Shown: piece after piece, positions 3,574 through 40,517 of the stretch
How positions within the stretch are numbered: position 1 is the stretch's first letter
How the letters are laid out: every line of letters starts with the position of its first letter
IMG/VR virus record: IMGVR_UViG_3300047494_000177
Coordinates: 1 to 43,965 of that record
Reading direction: 5' to 3' (one strand)
Source: a virus
Length of the DNA: 43,965 nucleotides
Notes under the pieces: generated by a model
The model's input: only the letters and a program-made list of their open reading frames with translations
What the model was told of the DNA's origin: nothing
Database searches by the model: none
Made by a program: the position numbers and the translations under genes

Positions 3574-3849
3574 ATGAACGCTCCCGAAATCATCGACGTC
3601 AACGAGCCGCCGTATACCGCAACCGCATCAACGGCGACCTCGCATTTCGTCCCGTTTGCGCAGTTCATCGACTGGACAAAAACGATCACCCGCAAGGTGC
3701 TGCAGCCATCAAAATACAGCCGGCGGGTTTCTGTTCCGCGCGCTCGCCGCGGCCGCGGCGGACTGATGAAAGCCAGGCTGAAGATTTCGCGAATCAAGTC
3801 GGTGACCGTCGGGTGCTTCCCGCGGCATGCCAGCTCAACGGTGGGATGA
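3574..3849 (+). CDS. Small basic protein, ATGA-coupled to the next gene
   Basis: The product has 91 residues. GAAGGA 5 nt before the ATG at 3574 favours this start over an upstream in-frame ATG. The C-terminal half is very basic (RVSVPRARRGRGG, MKARLKISRIKS) and could bind nucleic acid. Its stop overlaps the next ATG as ATGA, which supports both genes. I do not recognise the family. Confidence 0.5.
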   Translation: MNAPEIIDVNEPPYTATASTATSHFVPFAQFIDWTKTITRKVLQPSKYSRRVSVPRARRGRGGLMKARLKISRIKSVTVGCFPRHASSTVG

Positions 3850-20798: not shown

Positions 20799-23700
20799 GT
20801 GCCTGATAACTCGATCCCCGACAATCACCCGCTGCTGCTGAAGAATTTGCTTCCCGCGAATCAAAAGCAGCAGACCAGCGACGCCCAGTACCTGCAGAGC
20901 AGCATCCGGACGATCGACGGATTTGGCCGCCACGGCGCGAAGCACCGGCCGTTCAACTACCACCGCGCGATCAGCGCGTTCGGCAGCTGGGCGTACAAGG
21001 CGACGATGATCAACGCCAAGGGCGTCGCGTCACAGCGCCTGAGGGAATATGCTCGCACCGACCGACGGGCGAAAAAGTCGCGGGATTTCAAAACCAGGTC
21101 CGCGTGGCACAAGGCTGTGTCGAGTCGCGTTGAAGCGGCCAACAAGGGCCACGACGTCGACAACTCCGTCCTGCTCTGGGAAACGCGGCCGGTTTCTCCG
21201 CAGCTCAAGCGATACCTGAACGGAGATGCACGCGGATACGCTCGGCCGTCGAAAGCGGTGATGACCAAGACCGCCGAGATGGGCGGCGACTTCGAAGAAA
21301 TCATCGAGCAGACGCCTGAGATGAAACTGCTCAGCAAGCCGAACCCGTGGATGACGGCGTTCGACTTCCCGACGTTGCTGATGATCTATCTGCAGCTGAC
21401 GGGAAACTCCTACATCCATCCGGTGATCGATCCCCGGCTCGGCGTTCCGTGCGAACTGTGGATGATGCCGCCGCAGTGGACGTCGATCATTCCCGACCGC
21501 GAGCATTTCATCGCCGGGTATGTCTACGGAAAGTCATCCGAGGTCGAGCGGAAGTTTCAGCCAGATGAGGTCATTCACTTCAAACAGCCGAACCCGAAGG
21601 ACCTTTTTTACGGGATGGGCAATGTCGAAGCGGTCTGGGATGCGCTGAATTTGCATGATGCCAAGCGGATCCAGGACACGGCCAAGTTTGAGAATCACGG
21701 CCGGCCCGACTGGCTCCTGATCGTTAAGAACGGTGCGTCGAGCGACGCGCTGGACCGGCTGGAAGAGGCAATCGACTCCAAGCTCCGCGGTGTCCGAAAC
21801 GCCGGCAAGTTCCTGACCGTCACCGGTGATGTCACCGCTCAGATGCTGAATCAGGAGATCGAGCAGATCGGCGATTCTGATGTCATCGTGGAAGAGATAG
21901 CGGCCGGCTTCGACATTCCTATCACCAAGCTGAAGGCCAACGATCCGAATCGGGCAAACGCAGAGGCTGCGGACGCGGCATGGCAGCGCGACGCTATTCT
22001 GCCGTTCTGCACGCAGAATGAAGAGACGCTGAACTCCGGATATCTGCCGCTGTTCAAGGGCAACGGCAATTCGCTGCTCGCGTATGACAACCCCGTCTCT
22101 GAAGACAAGGTCTTCGGCGTCGATCGACTGACCAAATACGTCGCCGGTGGAATCATGTCTCCGAACGAAGGGCGCGCGGAGGAAGGTCTGCCGCCTGCCG
22201 CTGGCGGCAATGATCTTCGTATCGGACGGAACTCGGTGCCTTTCGCCCGGGTGATCGATGAGAACCCCCTGGCCGGCAATGACGACGATCCGGATGGCGT
22301 CAAGAAAGCGGAGGAGCCGGATCCGGTTGCAACGGTGAATCTCACCGCGCAGCAGACCAACGACGTCCGGAACATCGTCTCTGATGTGACGCAAGGACTG
22401 ATGCCACGAGACGCCGGGCTGGCGATTCTCCAGATGACGTTCCCGATCACGGTTGAGCAAGCCGTCCAGATGATGGGATCCGCCGGAACGATTGTACCTC
22501 CGGTCGCTGGTGCTGCTGGGGGTGCCCTTGGAGGTGCTGGTGCTGGCCGGGCGGGAGTTGCGGGCGCGGCCGGGGATCAGCGAAACGCAACAACTGCCGA
22601 ACCCGTCGAGCCACCGGACACAGAGAAAACAGTCAAAGGCTTCGGCCCGCACAAATACAGCTGCGTGATGGCACCGCTGACGGGAAGCGTGGGCGATGCG
22701 ATCAAGTCAATGTCTGCGGAGATTCCGGATGATGACCTCGCCGAAGATGGCCGAGAAACCGATCCGCATGTGACGGTTCTCTACGGCCTGCACGACGAAG
22801 ATCACTCCGGAGTTGTCGCGGCGATGGCAGGTGAATCGCCGATCACACTGTCACTTGGCAAGACAAAGGTGTTTCCTGCGGATTCCGGCCGGGCAAGCGA
22901 TGTGATCGTGGCCTCGGTGCATAGCGATGATCTACATCGACTGAACGCGAAACTCCGGAAGCTGCCGCACACGAACAAATATCCGACCTACGAACCGCAT
23001 GCGACGGTCGCATACGTTAAGCCCGGCAAGGGCCAGCACTATGCCAATCGTACCGTGCACGCATCACCGGTGATGGTGAAATCTCTCGTGCATGCCGGCA
23101 AGTCTGGCCACCGCACCGAGATTGTGTTGAGCGGAATTTCGGGAACTGATGAAGCTGCCCCGGCCCCCAACAATCGCCGCAACCGCCAACGTCCTGCAGT
23201 CATTGGTCGCATGGGTACCGATGGTCTCGCTGGCCCGCTTCCTCAGGGCACTGATCTGCAGGTGATCCTGCAGCGGTATTTCAACGAACAGAAGCACGCG
23301 GTCTTGTCGGCTATGGAGAAGCAACCGGAGCTAAAGAAAAAGGAAGATGAAATTCCCCGGTTATCGCACTGGTTCAATATCCGGCAGTGGACACAAAAGC
23401 TGCTGGCCGAAGTCACACCGGTGCTGGAATCAGTAGCGACGGACGCGGCCAAAAAGATCGCGGATCAGCTGGTGGCCGCCGATGACGTGTTCTCCGTTGT
23501 CGACCGCAATCTTCCGAAGTCTGTCGCTGATCTGGCACTGAAATTCTGCGATGCGACGAATCAGACGACAGTGCTGCAGTTGGACGAGGCTAGGGATTTG
23601 CTCCGCAAGGAAATCGTTGACGGCACGTTCGCAGGTGATACGTGTGCGGAATTGGCCAATCGCGTACAGCAGGTTTTCAACGTCGCTGATACCAAACGAG

Positions 23701-23963
23701 CGACGATGATCGCCCAGACGGAGACCAGCCGGGCACTGCATGCTGCCGAGCTGCTGACCGCTAAGGAATCCGGGTTGGTGCAGAGCAAGTCTTGGCTGGC
23801 GTCTGCTGACTGCTGTGACAAGTGTGCGGAATATGCATCCAAGGGCGAGATCCCACTGGAAGAGCCGTTCGGAGTGACTTCGTATGGCGAAGTGATGTCA
23901 GCACCAGCACACCCAAACTGCCAATGTTCGCAGTTGTTGAATCTTAAGCCCAGCGTGGATTGA
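20799..23963 (+). CDS. Portal - 2H phosphoesterase - MuF fusion protein
   Basis: The product has 1054 residues from GTG 20799. Residues about 150-490 are an HK97-family portal (LLSKPNPWMTAFDFPTLLMI, LTGNSYIHPVIDP, LWMMPP). An Ala/Gly linker at about 566-592 leads to a 2H phosphoesterase domain with two HxT motifs, HVTV from His657 and HATV from His734, 77 residues apart. Residues about 830-1054 are a MuF/SPP1-gp7-like minor head domain, ending with CCDKC (1005-1009) and HPNCQC (1038-1043). Portal and MuF fusions are known; the enzyme between them is the odd part. The catalytic histidines and threonines are intact. It should sit at the portal vertex and could reach the host with the DNA. Confidence 0.9.
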   Translation: MPDNSIPDNHPLLLKNLLPANQKQQTSDAQYLQSSIRTIDGFGRHGAKHRPFNYHRAISAFGSWAYKATMINAKGVASQRLREYARTDRRAKKSRDFKTRSAWHKAVSSRVEAANKGHDVDNSVLLWETRPVSPQLKRYLNGDARGYARPSKAVMTKTAEMGGDFEEIIEQTPEMKLLSKPNPWMTAFDFPTLLMIYLQLTGNSYIHPVIDPRLGVPCELWMMPPQWTSIIPDREHFIAGYVYGKSSEVERKFQPDEVIHFKQPNPKDLFYGMGNVEAVWDALNLHDAKRIQDTAKFENHGRPDWLLIVKNGASSDALDRLEEAIDSKLRGVRNAGKFLTVTGDVTAQMLNQEIEQIGDSDVIVEEIAAGFDIPITKLKANDPNRANAEAADAAWQRDAILPFCTQNEETLNSGYLPLFKGNGNSLLAYDNPVSEDKVFGVDRLTKYVAGGIMSPNEGRAEEGLPPAAGGNDLRIGRNSVPFARVIDENPLAGNDDDPDGVKKAEEPDPVATVNLTAQQTNDVRNIVSDVTQGLMPRDAGLAILQMTFPITVEQAVQMMGSAGTIVPPVAGAAGGALGGAGAGRAGVAGAAGDQRNATTAEPVEPPDTEKTVKGFGPHKYSCVMAPLTGSVGDAIKSMSAEIPDDDLAEDGRETDPHVTVLYGLHDEDHSGVVAAMAGESPITLSLGKTKVFPADSGRASDVIVASVHSDDLHRLNAKLRKLPHTNKYPTYEPHATVAYVKPGKGQHYANRTVHASPVMVKSLVHAGKSGHRTEIVLSGISGTDEAAPAPNNRRNRQRPAVIGRMGTDGLAGPLPQGTDLQVILQRYFNEQKHAVLSAMEKQPELKKKEDEIPRLSHWFNIRQWTQKLLAEVTPVLESVATDAAKKIADQLVAADDVFSVVDRNLPKSVADLALKFCDATNQTTVLQLDEARDLLRKEIVDGTFAGDTCAELANRVQQVFNVADTKRATMIAQTETSRALHAAELLTAKESGLVQSKSWLASADCCDKCAEYASKGEIPLEEPFGVTSYGEVMSAPAHPNCQCSQLLNLKPSVD

Positions 23964-27288: not shown

Positions 27289-27741
27289 ATGATCCATGTA
27301 CAAGCCAGCAAGGTCGCTCTTCTCGCGTATGGCGCCACCGTGGCGACCAATGCGACGACCGTTAACACCATCGATACCCTCGGGTTCGACTACGCCGGAA
27401 TCGACGTGGCTCTCCCGCCGGCATCTGCCACCAACGCTTCGGCGACATTCAGCGCCCTGAAGCTGACCGAAGGCGACACCACGGTGGTCAGCAATTCCAC
27501 GTCGATCACCGGATTCACCGGCGGTACCGACCTGACCATTCCGGTCGGGAACGACACGACGAATCCCTTGATCGCCCGCTTCCTGGTCGACCTCCGACCT
27601 CGCAAGCGATATCTGTTCGTCCAGACCACGTGCCCGACCGGCTACAACACGCCCGTCGTTCGATCGGAGCTGGTGCGTCCCGAGCAGGCTCCTATCACCG
27701 ATGCCAAGCGCGGTCTCAATCTGACCACGTTTATTGGTTGA
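27289..27741 (+). CDS. Small beta-rich head protein
   Basis: The product has 150 residues, begins MIHVQASKVALLAYGATVAT and is beta-rich with many Thr and Asn (FTGGTDLTIPVGNDTTN). Directly after the capsid gene it may be a decoration or stabilisation protein; similar small proteins follow capsid genes in many phages. AGAGAC before the ATG is a moderate ribosome binding site. The family is not recognised by sequence. Confidence 0.65.
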   Translation: MIHVQASKVALLAYGATVATNATTVNTIDTLGFDYAGIDVALPPASATNASATFSALKLTEGDTTVVSNSTSITGFTGGTDLTIPVGNDTTNPLIARFLVDLRPRKRYLFVQTTCPTGYNTPVVRSELVRPEQAPITDAKRGLNLTTFIG

Positions 27742-37758: not shown

Positions 37759-38661
37759 ATGGGCTTTAAAGCAACCATCACCGAAGTCGTCAACCAAGGA
37801 TTCTACGTCGCCACCCGCACCAGCCAGCAATACCGGCGCGTCTGGCTCGTCGAAGGACTTCCTCCCAACTGGGGATATATATCGCTACAGGGCGCGACCG
37901 ATCCCGCGTCAGGGATAACGATCCCAACGATCGGCGATTTGCTGACGGGAGTACCAAATACCAATTTGATCTTCCCGATTACATGTAGCAACGTTCGGGG
38001 CGAGCCATTCCCTCGCGATTCCAAAACGTCCGCACACGCAATCGTTGATTTCACTACACCAGACGGCGGCGGCGACCCAAACATCACCGTCATCGAGATA
38101 GGAGACAGCAACGGCAACACAACGATGCAGTACAACGCCCAGACCGGGCAAGTGCTGTCTGTCAGCTACCAAGCCGATGCCGGTGCGAGCGGCATTCTGC
38201 CACCACTACAGAATGACGTAGTGGCAATTCCGGTTCTGAGTCCGAACACCATCCTGCGGTTTACGAAAACGTTCACTTCATGCCCGCTTGCGCTGAGCAT
38301 TCAGTATCGAAGAAAACTGAATGCGACCACATGGCAAGGCTGCCCGCCGTCAACAGTGCTTTGCCGCGGGTTCAGTGCAATTTCAACGCTCGGTGGCGCT
38401 GCGTTTCGCGGAACGCTGGCGTTCGAGATCGCGCCGCCGGTTCCAACCGGTTCTCCGGCAGCAAAATATGGATTTGGCCCGTGGACGCGGGTTGAGTTTT
38501 TCAGAGATCACATCAGCGGTCAGATTCCGCCTGATATTTTGGCGAAATATGTTGCCGGGACATTCCCGGGCCCATTTGACGGGAGCACAGGAATTCTTGT
38601 GGCCAATCCGTACGCGACGGCTGAATTCAATGCACTGGGTCTGCCAACGGTTGCGTCGTAG
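37759..38661 (+). CDS. Large virion-like protein of unknown family
   Basis: The product has 300 residues. It is beta-rich (FKATITEVVNQGFYVATRTS, YRRVWLVEGLPPNWGYISLQ, NGNTTMQYNAQTGQVLSVSY) with a helical end. It could be a distal tail or surface protein. The ATG lies immediately after a terminator's T run, with no ribosome binding site between, so expression should need read-through or another start. The gene ends 35 nt into the reverse-strand gene that follows (convergent). Confidence 0.55.
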   Translation: MGFKATITEVVNQGFYVATRTSQQYRRVWLVEGLPPNWGYISLQGATDPASGITIPTIGDLLTGVPNTNLIFPITCSNVRGEPFPRDSKTSAHAIVDFTTPDGGGDPNITVIEIGDSNGNTTMQYNAQTGQVLSVSYQADAGASGILPPLQNDVVAIPVLSPNTILRFTKTFTSCPLALSIQYRRKLNATTWQGCPPSTVLCRGFSAISTLGGAAFRGTLAFEIAPPVPTGSPAAKYGFGPWTRVEFFRDHISGQIPPDILAKYVAGTFPGPFDGSTGILVANPYATAEFNALGLPTVAS

Positions 38662-39127
38662 GGGATTCAGCGGACGACGGCGGCAATCCTGGGGTAGTTC
38701 GAACATAAGGCTCCAGCTTCAGCTGTGCCGACACCTGTTGAACCGCCTGCACAAACCGGCCATCAACTTCGATGTATCGATCATGCTGCGATTTCTGTTC
38801 CTCTGAAAGCTGTGCGACATCGACTTCCATGTTGCGATAATGGCCGCGAAGCATCGCCCGCCGATGCTGATGCACCTTCAAGTGGTTGTACTGCGATGCC
38901 TCTGCATCGGTTAGAAGTTTGATCCCCTTCTTATGCGTAACGACGGTGATGTTCCTGCCGGCGTTCCGCAGGTCGCGGGATAACCGCTGCTGTACTGCCA
39001 TCAGCTTCAACGCGTAAGACTCTGTGTTTCGACGAACGCCAACGATCTTCTCGATTTGATTTACCGGGATCAGATCGCCTTTGTTCAGTTTGTCGAGGTC
39101 GAATGGATAACGATTTGCTTCACTCAT
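38627..39127 (-). CDS. Reverse-strand accessory protein A (repeat-array leader)
   Basis: The product has 166 residues; ATG 39125-39127 has AGGAGA upstream, and a longer frame runs back into the repeat array and is rejected. The protein begins SEANRYPFDLDKLNKGDLIP and has long helices (NTESYALKLMAVQQRLSRDL) with a beta strand ITVVTHKKGIKLLTD and a Pro/Ser-rich end. Similar phage proteins of unknown function come to mind, but no domain can be named. Its leader has the same layout as that of gene B. Confidence 0.6.
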   Translation of the reverse strand: MSEANRYPFDLDKLNKGDLIPVNQIEKIVGVRRNTESYALKLMAVQQRLSRDLRNAGRNITVVTHKKGIKLLTDAEASQYNHLKVHQHRRAMLRGHYRNMEVDVAQLSEEQKSQHDRYIEVDGRFVQAVQQVSAQLKLEPYVRTTPGLPPSSAESPTTQPLADPVH

Positions 39128-39145
39128 AACTGTCTCCTGATAACT

Positions 39146-39159
39146 GTCCCCTAAGGGAC
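39146..39159 (-). promoter_or_regulatory. Leader hairpin of gene A
   Basis: On the reverse strand GTCCC pairs with GGGAC over a TTAG loop (5 bp, 4 nt). The element directly follows CCAAGG (39160-39165) and precedes the ribosome binding site. The leader of gene B has a hairpin of the same size at the same distance but with different stem bases, so the pairing rather than the sequence is kept. Confidence 0.65.
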
Positions 39160-39168
39160 CCTTGGATT

Positions 39169-39221
39169 GCCATTCCGTGCAACGCCCCGCCGCGCCAAGC
39201 CGCGCCTGGCCGTGCCTTGCC
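39169..39221 (-). repeat. Phased pentanucleotide repeat array, 11 units (leader of gene A)
   Basis: On the + strand, GCC cores start at 39169, 39184, 39189, 39194, 39199, 39204, 39209, 39214 and 39219, with TCC and GCA filling 39174 and 39179: 11 units in exact 5-nt phase. The two bases between cores vary freely. In gene sense this reads GGC every 5 nt. The array ends 3 nt from CCAAGG. A period of 5 is not compatible with coding. Confidence 0.8.
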
Positions 39222-39234
39222 CGACATTGAATCA

Positions 39235-39798
39235 TCACACAATCTCAAACCGCCCAAACTTGGGCGTGTAATTTCCGAGCCCGATGATGCGGCCGGCGGT
39301 GGTCACCGCATCGATAACGTTTGACTCGTTGAGCAAATCAGGCAGGTAGTCGATGGTGAATTTCAGTGACCATGACCGGAAGATCGGACGTGTTCGGATG
39401 ACCGTCGATGTCCCGATCTTAACTCCGCGACGGTCAACGAAACGCTTGTCTTTCCAGAGATCTTCAACGGTTTTTGGTCCGTCATATTCAATGATCCACA
39501 ACCCGTCAGAAATGACGCCAGCCTTGAACGGCTCGCCAAGCTTTTGTTTCTTTCCGGCCTCCACCAGCATTGATTCCAAATTCCCACCAGGAATCACCGG
39601 ACGAATCTTCTCGTCCAGATATAGGCCGCCGAAGAACTCGATTTTTCCCAAAGCTTCGTAATCGTCGTCGGTCTTTTTTCGCTTGCCGCTTATCGCCTTC
39701 ATATCTCTGGCGTACTTGTTGAGCGGATCAGCAAGCTGACCGTTGTGAACGAGAAGAGGGGATACGCCGCGAATGTGAAACTTCAGATTCTTGTACAT
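39235..39798 (-). CDS. Reverse-strand accessory protein B, possible RAMP-like fold
   Basis: The product has 187 residues; ATG 39796-39798 has TAGGAG upstream. It begins YKNLKFHIRGVSPLLVHNGQ. PVIPGGNLESMLVEAGKKQK and the end AGRIIGLGNYTPKFGRFEIV are well known to me as features of a widespread phage protein family of unknown function. The first strand, the PG(G)xL helix and the Gly-rich end resemble RAMP (Cas5/Cas7-type) domains; this is only a fold guess. It is the gene behind the longest leader in the window (array, hairpin, structured RNA). Confidence 0.65.
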   Translation of the reverse strand: MYKNLKFHIRGVSPLLVHNGQLADPLNKYARDMKAISGKRKKTDDDYEALGKIEFFGGLYLDEKIRPVIPGGNLESMLVEAGKKQKLGEPFKAGVISDGLWIIEYDGPKTVEDLWKDKRFVDRRGVKIGTSTVIRTRPIFRSWSLKFTIDYLPDLLNESNVIDAVTTAGRIIGLGNYTPKFGRFEIV

Positions 39799-39822
39799 GA
39801 TCGAAACTCCTAAAAATGTTCT

Positions 39823-39836
39823 GCGTCCGAAGACGC
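39823..39836 (-). promoter_or_regulatory. Leader hairpin of gene B with a UUCG tetraloop
   Basis: On the reverse strand GCGTC pairs with GACGC over TTCG, giving the very stable C(UUCG)G cap. It directly follows CCAAGG (39837-39842). The + strand would have a CGAA loop, so the hairpin argues for function in reverse-strand RNA, in the sense of gene B. Confidence 0.7.
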
Positions 39837-39845
39837 CCTTGGTTG

Positions 39846-39908
39846 GCCTTGCCTCGCCCGGCCTAGCCCAGCCATGTCGCGCCGAGCCCTGCTATGCCAG
39901 GCCGCGCT
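39846..39908 (-). repeat. Phased pentanucleotide repeat array, 13 units (leader of gene B)
   Basis: On the + strand, GCC or one-base variants start every 5 nt from 39846 to 39906 (GTC at 39876, GCT at 39891 and 39906, GCC at the other ten). As in gene A, the array begins exactly 3 nt from CCAAGG, which itself abuts the hairpin. Spacer bases differ between the two arrays, so this is not a recent duplication of one DNA segment. Confidence 0.85.
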
Positions 39909-39933
39909 GGGACACGCATTGCGAGTATTAAAA

Positions 39934-40043
39934 GTCCCCGCGTGCAGGTTGTTACCCGTCGATGAGGACGCGCTGCACGGGGGACGAGGATCGTTGTGTC
40001 GTTGGGGTTCCGACGGGTAACAGCATTCCCATCGTCGAACCCC
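39934..40043. ncRNA. Candidate structured RNA: two hairpins with kissing loops
   Basis: Stem 1: 39934-39947 pairs with 39973-39985 (13 bp, one bulged G). Stem 3: 40004-40010 pairs with 40037-40043 (7 bp, extendable to 10 with a bulge). The first 14 nt of loop 1 (39948-39961) are complementary to the first 14 nt of loop 3 (40011-40024), 11 of them without a break (GTTACCCGTCG with CGACGGGTAAC). So the loops can kiss, or the strand can switch between folds. It fills the 305-nt gap before gene B. Which strand is transcribed is not settled; one G-T wobble favours +, neighbouring genes favour -. Confidence 0.65.
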
Positions 40044-40103: not shown

Positions 40104-40517
40104 TCACGCCTTGGCGCTAACCGCCGCTTGCGCTCGCACCGCAAGCTCTCCCGCAGGGAACATCACGCGGTACATCGCCAGCAGCGATTCAGCCGACCAC
40201 CCGGTGCGGTCGGCGGCTTGCTCAATGTCCAACAGCGGGTATCCGCCTTCGCTGTACGCGATCCCGCAATAAGTCATCGCCGGCGGTTCGGGAACTGGCT
40301 CGGCACCCACGATCCTGAATTTGGCATCGGGAATCATCAGCGATGTTTCGGCTATGATGTTGGCGAAGAGCTTCCGATCGGCCATCCGGGGATGCTTAGC
40401 TCGGGCGCTGGCGATAATTTCTTCGCGCCGAACTCGGCTGTCGATGCCCATGTCGATCAGCCGCATGTGCAGACCCATGGTTGTGCTGGGCGTATCTTCG
40501 GTGATTGGTGCGTTCAT
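40104..40517 (-). CDS. Accessory protein of unknown function
   Basis: The product has 137 residues. CGAACGGAGAAC precedes the ATG, the same leader motif as the next reverse gene. It is helical at the start (LHMRLIDMGIDSRVRREEII) and ends with a helix-rich part (DIEQAADRTGWSAESLLAMY). No catalytic motif is seen. It is upstream of the structured RNA and gene B in the same transcription direction. Confidence 0.6.
   Translation of the reverse strand: MNAPITEDTPSTTMGLHMRLIDMGIDSRVRREEIIASARAKHPRMADRKLFANIIAETSLMIPDAKFRIVGAEPVPEPPAMTYCGIAYSEGGYPLLDIEQAADRTGWSAESLLAMYRVMFPAGELAVRAQAAVSAKA

Follow-up and report, generated by a model that had tools for sequence, protein, structure and literature searches.

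Paired hairpins before a vrRNA in a phage VIPR locus: a possible transcription boundary on the minus strand

Introduction

According to the main text of the report that describes them (bioRxiv 2026.04.26.720920; PMC13142463), Viral Interference Programmable Repeat (VIPR) systems consist of the protein Vipr and of vrRNAs with 9-16 GGY/NN repeats and a structured tail. The same text states that vrRNAs are read by a one-nucleotide skip rule and that VIPR serves conflict between phages. VIPR, a form of RNA-guided DNA recognition, has been proposed to be older than CRISPR. Among the papers listed in a literature search, only PMC13142463 describes such repeats, and no paper on the element analysed here was found.

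We studied a stretch of 43,965 nucleotides (IMG/VR record IMGVR_UViG_3300047494_000177, positions 1 to 43,965; hereafter the window). It comes from an uncultivated tailed phage and encodes terminase, portal, protease and capsid proteins. The leader of one of its minus-strand genes contains two hairpins with complementary loops. Such pairs are known from kissing-loop antisense and attenuator RNAs, among them ColE1 RNAI/RNAII, CopA/CopT and pT181, and the element resembles these in having two hairpins whose loops are complementary. Unlike in the ColE1, CopA and pT181 RNAs, both loops lie in one transcript, with no sign of an antisense partner, and the complementarity (12-14 pairs) is longer than the usual initial kissing contact in RNAs of that type. 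The element also resembles intrinsic terminators and attenuators in that a GC-rich hairpin is followed at once by a T-run, in an intergenic position and in the correct orientation. Intrinsic terminators differ from it in having a short loop (here 25 nt) and a long T-run (here four Ts), and the element differs from them in that the loop next to the T-run is complementary to an upstream hairpin.

A VIPR locus at the right end of the window

The right end of the window carries minus-strand ORFs at 41289-40870, 40809-40552, 40517-40104, 39798-39235 and 39127-38627. The fourth of these, gene B (39,235-39,798, minus strand), matches PHROG 4652 (phrog_4652; unknown function; E = 4.6e-54). A profile of 44 gene B homologues had a sole strong PDB match, 36pp, the 'SUSP1 Vipr protein' (E = 1e-60), and the single protein matched the same entry at E = 2.2e-30. 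Gene B yielded an AlphaFold2 model with a pLDDT of 94.9. Foldseek retrieved RAMP subunits of Csm, Cmr and type VII CRISPR systems (614 matches at E <= 10, 42 at E <= 0.001), with TM-scores of about 0.35-0.53 by query length among the matches listed. We annotate gene B as vipr, which encodes a RAMP protein.

Gene A (38,627-39,127, minus strand; 166 aa) is a candidate vipr-accessory protein gene (vap). It is conserved beside vipr in locus L016, whose gene at the corresponding place shares 33% identity with it (E = 3e-26). Searches against the downstream gene of wV8 and that of MakoManhole gave no significant match for gene A. In wV8 (L014), annotated 58-nt DR_4 repeats (2256-2313 and 3649-3706) flank the vipr homologue and the gene next to it; these repeats are plausibly vrRNAs or their tails.

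The VIPR module on the minus strand is made up of vrRNA1, vipr, vrRNA2 and gene A. It shares with VIPR, as described in the main text of PMC13142463, a Vipr RAMP protein, vrRNAs with GGYNN repeats and hairpin tails, a phage genome, tracts on the sense strand and a small conserved partner gene beside vipr. We conclude that this locus joins the VIPR systems as a new member. It departs from VIPR as published in the paired-hairpin element before vrRNA1, which does not figure in that main text. A preliminary description of this DNA had assigned a structured element to the gene B leader, which was borne out; it had missed that gene B is Vipr and that the leader contains a vrRNA guide. The VIPR setting, more than the element, gives the observation its significance. 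Control of vrRNA and Vipr production is absent from the main text of PMC13142463, and a structured boundary immediately in front of a vrRNA offers a concrete and testable starting point in the search for such control. Searches with the proteins of portal, gene A and gene C revealed no near relatives of the phage in the records covered, which may omit very near ones.

Guide tracts and tails of the vrRNAs

The guide tract of vrRNA1 (39,844-39,908, minus strand) has 13 GGYNN-like units, three of them imperfect. Its 3' tail (39,818-39,840, minus strand) reads AAGG, a 5-bp hairpin (GCGTC-TTCG-GACGC) and AGAAC. The vrRNA2 tract (39,167-39,221, minus strand) has about 11 units and lies in the leader of gene A; its tail (39,141-39,163, minus strand) has AAGG and a 5-bp hairpin (GTCCC-TTAG-GGGAC). 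Across five chosen tails (both from the window, and those of L216, L012 and L065), the hairpin was paired in 25/25 cells and four of its five pairs changed on both sides; five further tails, which differed in loop length, had an offset stem or nearly duplicated another tail, were excluded from this count. The alignment indicates that the covarying RNA in the gene B leader is the predicted vrRNA tail, not the kissing pair. A small hairpin of at least 5 bp followed 148 of 552 tracts, compared to 163 shuffled tails, so such hairpins are not commoner than in shuffled sequence. The AAGG-hairpin tail type belongs to a subset of vrRNAs and is not a general rule. One contig with tails of the window type (L216) is a MAG contig labelled Candidatus Omnitrophota, with a 50% identical Vipr and four vrRNA tracts.

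All listed tracts of at least seven units were on the orientation strand of their loci, which for gene B loci is the strand of gene B. We also scanned viral contigs for arrays of nine exact units without using the protein, which gave at least 120 stretches, 80 of them listed. Gene B was encoded in 59 of the 80 array loci listed, and in 57 of these 59 it was on the array's strand (the exceptions were L123 and L168). The other 21 listed loci, within L096-L175 (for example L102, L141 and L152), had GGCNN arrays with no detectable vipr in the stretch. These could be vrRNA-only elements such as satellites, loci with a diverged vipr, or truncated stretches. Among 22 records bearing gene B or an array, 18 had six-unit arrays, which within any one record never occupied both strands; the reversed control pattern occurred in none.

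Under the one-nucleotide skip rule, the best matches in the window were 17/26 for vrRNA1 (37919, plus strand) and 18/24 for vrRNA2 (34620, plus strand). Three shuffles each gave best matches of 17-18 and 16-17, respectively, so neither vrRNA had a target in the window clearly above shuffled sequence. An exact 10-dinucleotide target of vrRNA1 was not found in viral contigs. We rejected self-targeting (autoregulation) by the vrRNAs at the element, as the best skip-rule matches of the window lie outside it.

The compared loci showed several other tract arrangements. From about 6301, L100 carries one GGY tract that comprises some 130-142 pentanucleotide units, far above the 9-16 reported in the main text of PMC13142463; an expansion or a staggered array may explain its length. 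In L016, three tandem vrRNAs with near-identical tails lie between gene A and vipr (2020-2440). By eye, the start of these tails (GGGGTC) could pair with GACCCC of the hairpin, as a tail pseudoknot. CRISPR-like arrangements, in which GGCNN tracts alternate with conserved linkers of 20-40 nt, were present in L019 (3157-4109), L034 (709-1631) and L072 (3101-3801).

Geometry and fold of the paired hairpins

The element lies between ORFs 40517-40104 and 39798-39235, and its end is 21 nt from the first vrRNA tract. It had been drawn on the plus strand; the structure stands, and the relevant strand is the minus strand, on which the genes on both sides are encoded. Hairpin T (39,934-39,985, minus strand; dG -28.6) is terminator-like, with a GC-rich stem of 13 bp and a loop of 25 nt (39948-39972). 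Its stem joins 39934-39947 to 39973-39985 through six and seven pairs around one bulged base. A TTTT run (39,930-39,933, minus strand) follows directly 3' of it, giving the tail TTTTAATA. Hairpin A (40,004-40,043, minus strand) has an outer stem of seven pairs, GGGGUUC/GAACCCC (40004-40010 with 40037-40043), around a 26-nt loop in the plus-strand drawing (40011-40036). Stems of 13 and 7 bp with loops of 25 and 26 nt had been claimed and are present, the longer stem having one bulge.

The two loops match over 14 contiguous pairs (39948-39961 with 40011-40024). Twelve of these are perfect and join the loop segment CGACGGGTAACA of hairpin T (39,950-39,961, minus strand) to the segment TGTTACCCGTCG in the apical loop and 3' arm of hairpin A (40,011-40,022, minus strand); one G-T and one G-C pair make up the rest. 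This is slightly better than the match of 11 perfect pairs plus three in the preliminary description.

On the minus strand, hairpin A gains seven inner pairs (CGAUGGG/CCCGUCG, one of them U-G), because a mismatch of the plus strand becomes U-G. It then has 14 pairs in total, a 2-nt bulge between the outer and inner arms and a 10-nt apical loop, and its energy is -21.8 kcal/mol compared to -17.9 kcal/mol on the plus strand. The fold of the whole element had a z-score of -3.41 on the minus strand (1/200 shuffles equally stable). On the plus strand it was -1.70 (15/200), with flanks slightly different from those of the minus-strand test.

The arrangement compared with shuffled sequence

We dinucleotide-shuffled the 306-nt intergenic region 3000 times and counted matches between the loops of two hairpins with stems of 6 bp or more. 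Such matches reached 9, 10, 11 and 12 bp or more in 36, 7, 3 and 0 shuffles, respectively. Across both strands of the whole window, loop-loop matches of at least 10 bp were present at four places, and only the element reached at least 11 bp; the other three were at 27400, 31484 and 3637 (one or both strands). Bare 12-bp inverted repeats at such a spacing are expected about 0.26 times per window (43965 x 100 / 4^12). The joint arrangement is unlikely by chance, whereas a bare 12-bp inverted repeat at such a spacing is not rare. The earlier statement that the arrangement is far beyond chance is correct for the combination of stems and loops, and less so for the complementarity alone.

These numbers bear on the simplest reading, that the element is two ordinary hairpins with fortuitous loop complementarity and no joint function. 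The expectation for bare repeats, the three other 10-bp places and the fact that no conservation was found are all in keeping with it; the absence of the joint arrangement from every leader shuffle and the minus-strand z-score argue against it. We consider this reading improbable.

A proposed transcription boundary before vrRNA1

Our preferred reading, held tentatively and at slightly less than even probability, is that the element is a minus-strand transcription boundary, with the upstream operon (ORFs 41289 to 40104) on one side and the VIPR module on the other. A transcript of the nearest upstream ORF (40,104-40,517, minus strand; without a family match) would run into the element. Hairpin A would fold first on this RNA. 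The GC-rich hairpin T, ending in UUUU, would then act as an intrinsic terminator or a partial attenuator and would limit the upstream transcription that enters the guide RNA and vipr. A separate promoter, which overlaps the end of hairpin T, would drive vrRNA1. Through its complementary loops the upstream RNA could also adopt another fold, with the loop of hairpin T paired to the 3' arm of hairpin A, and this may tune folding. The element itself is probably an ordinary gene-boundary structure.

In favour of a boundary, all flanking genes are on the minus strand, the fold on that strand is unusual, and the element occupies the intergenic region immediately before vrRNA1. In an RNAfold scan over all T-run sites of the minus strand, hairpin T with its tail ranked second among terminator-like hairpins and first outside coding sequence. 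The stronger hairpin (20117-20058) is antisense and inside the terminase ORF. The best terminator-like hairpins in shuffled windows reached -33.5, -23.1 and -25.5, values that span the energy of hairpin T; energy alone is therefore not decisive for a terminator. Counting against one are the T-run, which has only four Ts, and the loop, which at 25 nt is larger than is usual in intrinsic terminators; in addition, a simple terminator scan did not list hairpin T.

The candidate vrRNA1 promoter (39,927-39,955, minus strand) is sigma-70-like and overlaps hairpin T. It has a -35 box GTAACA (39955-39950), a 17-nt spacer and a -10 box TTTAAT (39932-39927), with 9/12 matches, and ends 18 nt before the vrRNA1 tract. 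The T-run need not be the U-tract of a terminator if it is part of this -10 box. Sites with 9/12 matches occur 13 times on the whole minus strand and occurred in 35/2000 shuffles of the 60-nt flank. The predicted vrRNA1 would start at about 39920 and end after the tail near 39818, giving about 100 nt; the main text of PMC13142463 reports vrRNAs of about 100 nt for SUSP1.

The 5' flanks of first-tract vrRNAs were modestly more structured than control stretches from the same loci, which were unmatched for coding status (mean z -0.55, n = 163, compared to -0.12, n = 326; P = 0.0017). Several of these flanks carry strong simple hairpins, which are terminator-like in L161, L122 and L017. Some structured first-tract flanks are tails of preceding vrRNAs, not terminators.

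Alternative readings of the paired hairpins

A control region acting at the DNA level would account for the repeats in another way. TGTTACCCGTCG and its inverted copy 61 bp away would be sites of a regulator, one of them overlapping the -35 box of the vrRNA1 promoter, and the RNA structure would be incidental. We consider this rather unlikely. One copy does overlap a -35 box, which belongs to the sole 9/12 promoter-like site within 150 nt 5' of vrRNA1, and apart from these two copies the 12-mer has no exact occurrence in the window. Promoter-like sites were also present in 7/163 first-tract vrRNA 5' flanks compared to 2/163 control stretches, which is a weak trend and a small difference. The 12-mer is not itself palindromic, and allowing two mismatches adds five further sites in the window (seven in all, compared to a shuffle mean of 3.8). 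A pair of regulator sites would also leave the nested 13-bp and 7-bp stems around the repeats unexplained. Another reading is a functional loop-loop (kissing) riboregulator. Hairpin A would then offer its loop and 3' arm to the loop of hairpin T, and switching between that pairing and the nested hairpin A would govern read-through into vrRNA1 and vipr or their processing. The 12 perfect pairs (14 in total), matched in none of the 3000 shuffles, favour it. So does the competing fold that had been proposed for this region, which we confirmed on the minus strand: the inner arm of hairpin A (-11.1 kcal/mol) uses the same bases as the loop-loop duplex (-20.1 kcal/mol before any kissing penalty), making the two rivals of similar energy. 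On the plus strand the corresponding values were about -8.9 and -23.7. The pairing is not that of a classical antiterminator, because the loop of hairpin T can pair with hairpin A while stem T stays closed. Pseudoknot programs charge a kissing penalty of about 9-12 kcal/mol. A penalty of this size brings the two forms close, so a switch is physically possible, although the nested form then becomes equal or better. A run of 12-14 pairs between two loops that are already closed is topologically awkward, and at least 12 such pairs would be hindered here.

Comparison with other loci weighed further on the kissing reading. We searched for covarying homologues of the element, as had been suggested, and found none in phage records or in viral and genome contigs. 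DNA matches in phage records were to the repeat tract or to short stretches (E about 4), and the exact core of the element was absent from the viral and genome contigs searched; as these searches may omit records very near the window, absence is weak evidence. Loop pairs were no commoner than in shuffled sequence in 419 distinct vrRNA 5' flanks: pairs of at least 9 bp were present in 5 of the 419, compared to 16 in three shuffle sets, with 1 compared to 4 at 10 bp or more and 0 compared to 1 at 12 bp or more. Among the leaders of 92 gene B homologues, a loop-loop match of at least 10 bp was present only in L033, L035 and L036, which are one sequence type, and in L051. None had a comparable 12-bp pair, and we rejected the kissing pair as a conserved leader RNA of gene B. 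In L033, L035 and L036 (about 2395-2485, shifted in L036), a hairpin with a T-run, upstream of vipr, forms a terminator whose loop is complementary over 10 bp to the loop of the preceding hairpin. This likeness favours the kissing reading, but a terminator-plus-loop arrangement at 9 bp occurs in 31/214 loci (both strands), and the case of L033 may be chance. These data suggest that the kissing pair is not part of VIPR. A functional kissing complex, as put forward in the preliminary description, is unsupported: no homologue of the element was found in these searches, and its architecture is not enriched at vrRNA tracts. We judge a kissing riboregulator to be improbable, and a loop-loop switch to be possible but unsupported. 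A full two-state RNA switch, in which nested hairpin A and A-T loop pairing would gate transcription or processing of vrRNA and Vipr, seems very unlikely. If it did exist, the phage would set when its RNA-guided weapon is made, and the element would represent cis-acting RNA regulation at a VIPR locus, which does not appear in the main text of PMC13142463. Finally, the element could be a 5' processing signal of vrRNA1, with hairpin T cut or left as a block to give a defined 5' end. A parallel would be other VIPR types, in whose arrays hammerhead ribozymes are interspersed according to the main text of PMC13142463, and the end of the element, 21 nt before the tract, is suitably placed. Against it, no Rfam ribozyme matched at the gathering score, and raising E up to 10 gave only chance-like sub-threshold matches. 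Such hairpin pairs are also not enriched at other vrRNAs, and vrRNA2 directly follows vipr without one. We consider processing a highly improbable explanation.

Further candidates were discarded. With no Rfam match at the gathering score, we rejected a known ribozyme, riboswitch or sRNA. HDV-like and hammerhead cores were sought by eye on both strands and none was found. We also rejected the tail of a lost vrRNA, as vrRNA tails in this window take the AAGG-hairpin form and no GGY tract comes before the element. The Rfam search of the other loci returned one tRNA.

For the reading of raw sequence, the case suggests checking the transcribed strand and looking for GGCNN tracts near odd RNA structures. 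Elsewhere in the window, a plus-strand ORF of 1054 aa (20799-23963) combines portal, RNA-ligase-like and head-morphogenesis matches in one frame, with the RNA-ligase-like part at residues 621-744 (phrog_755).
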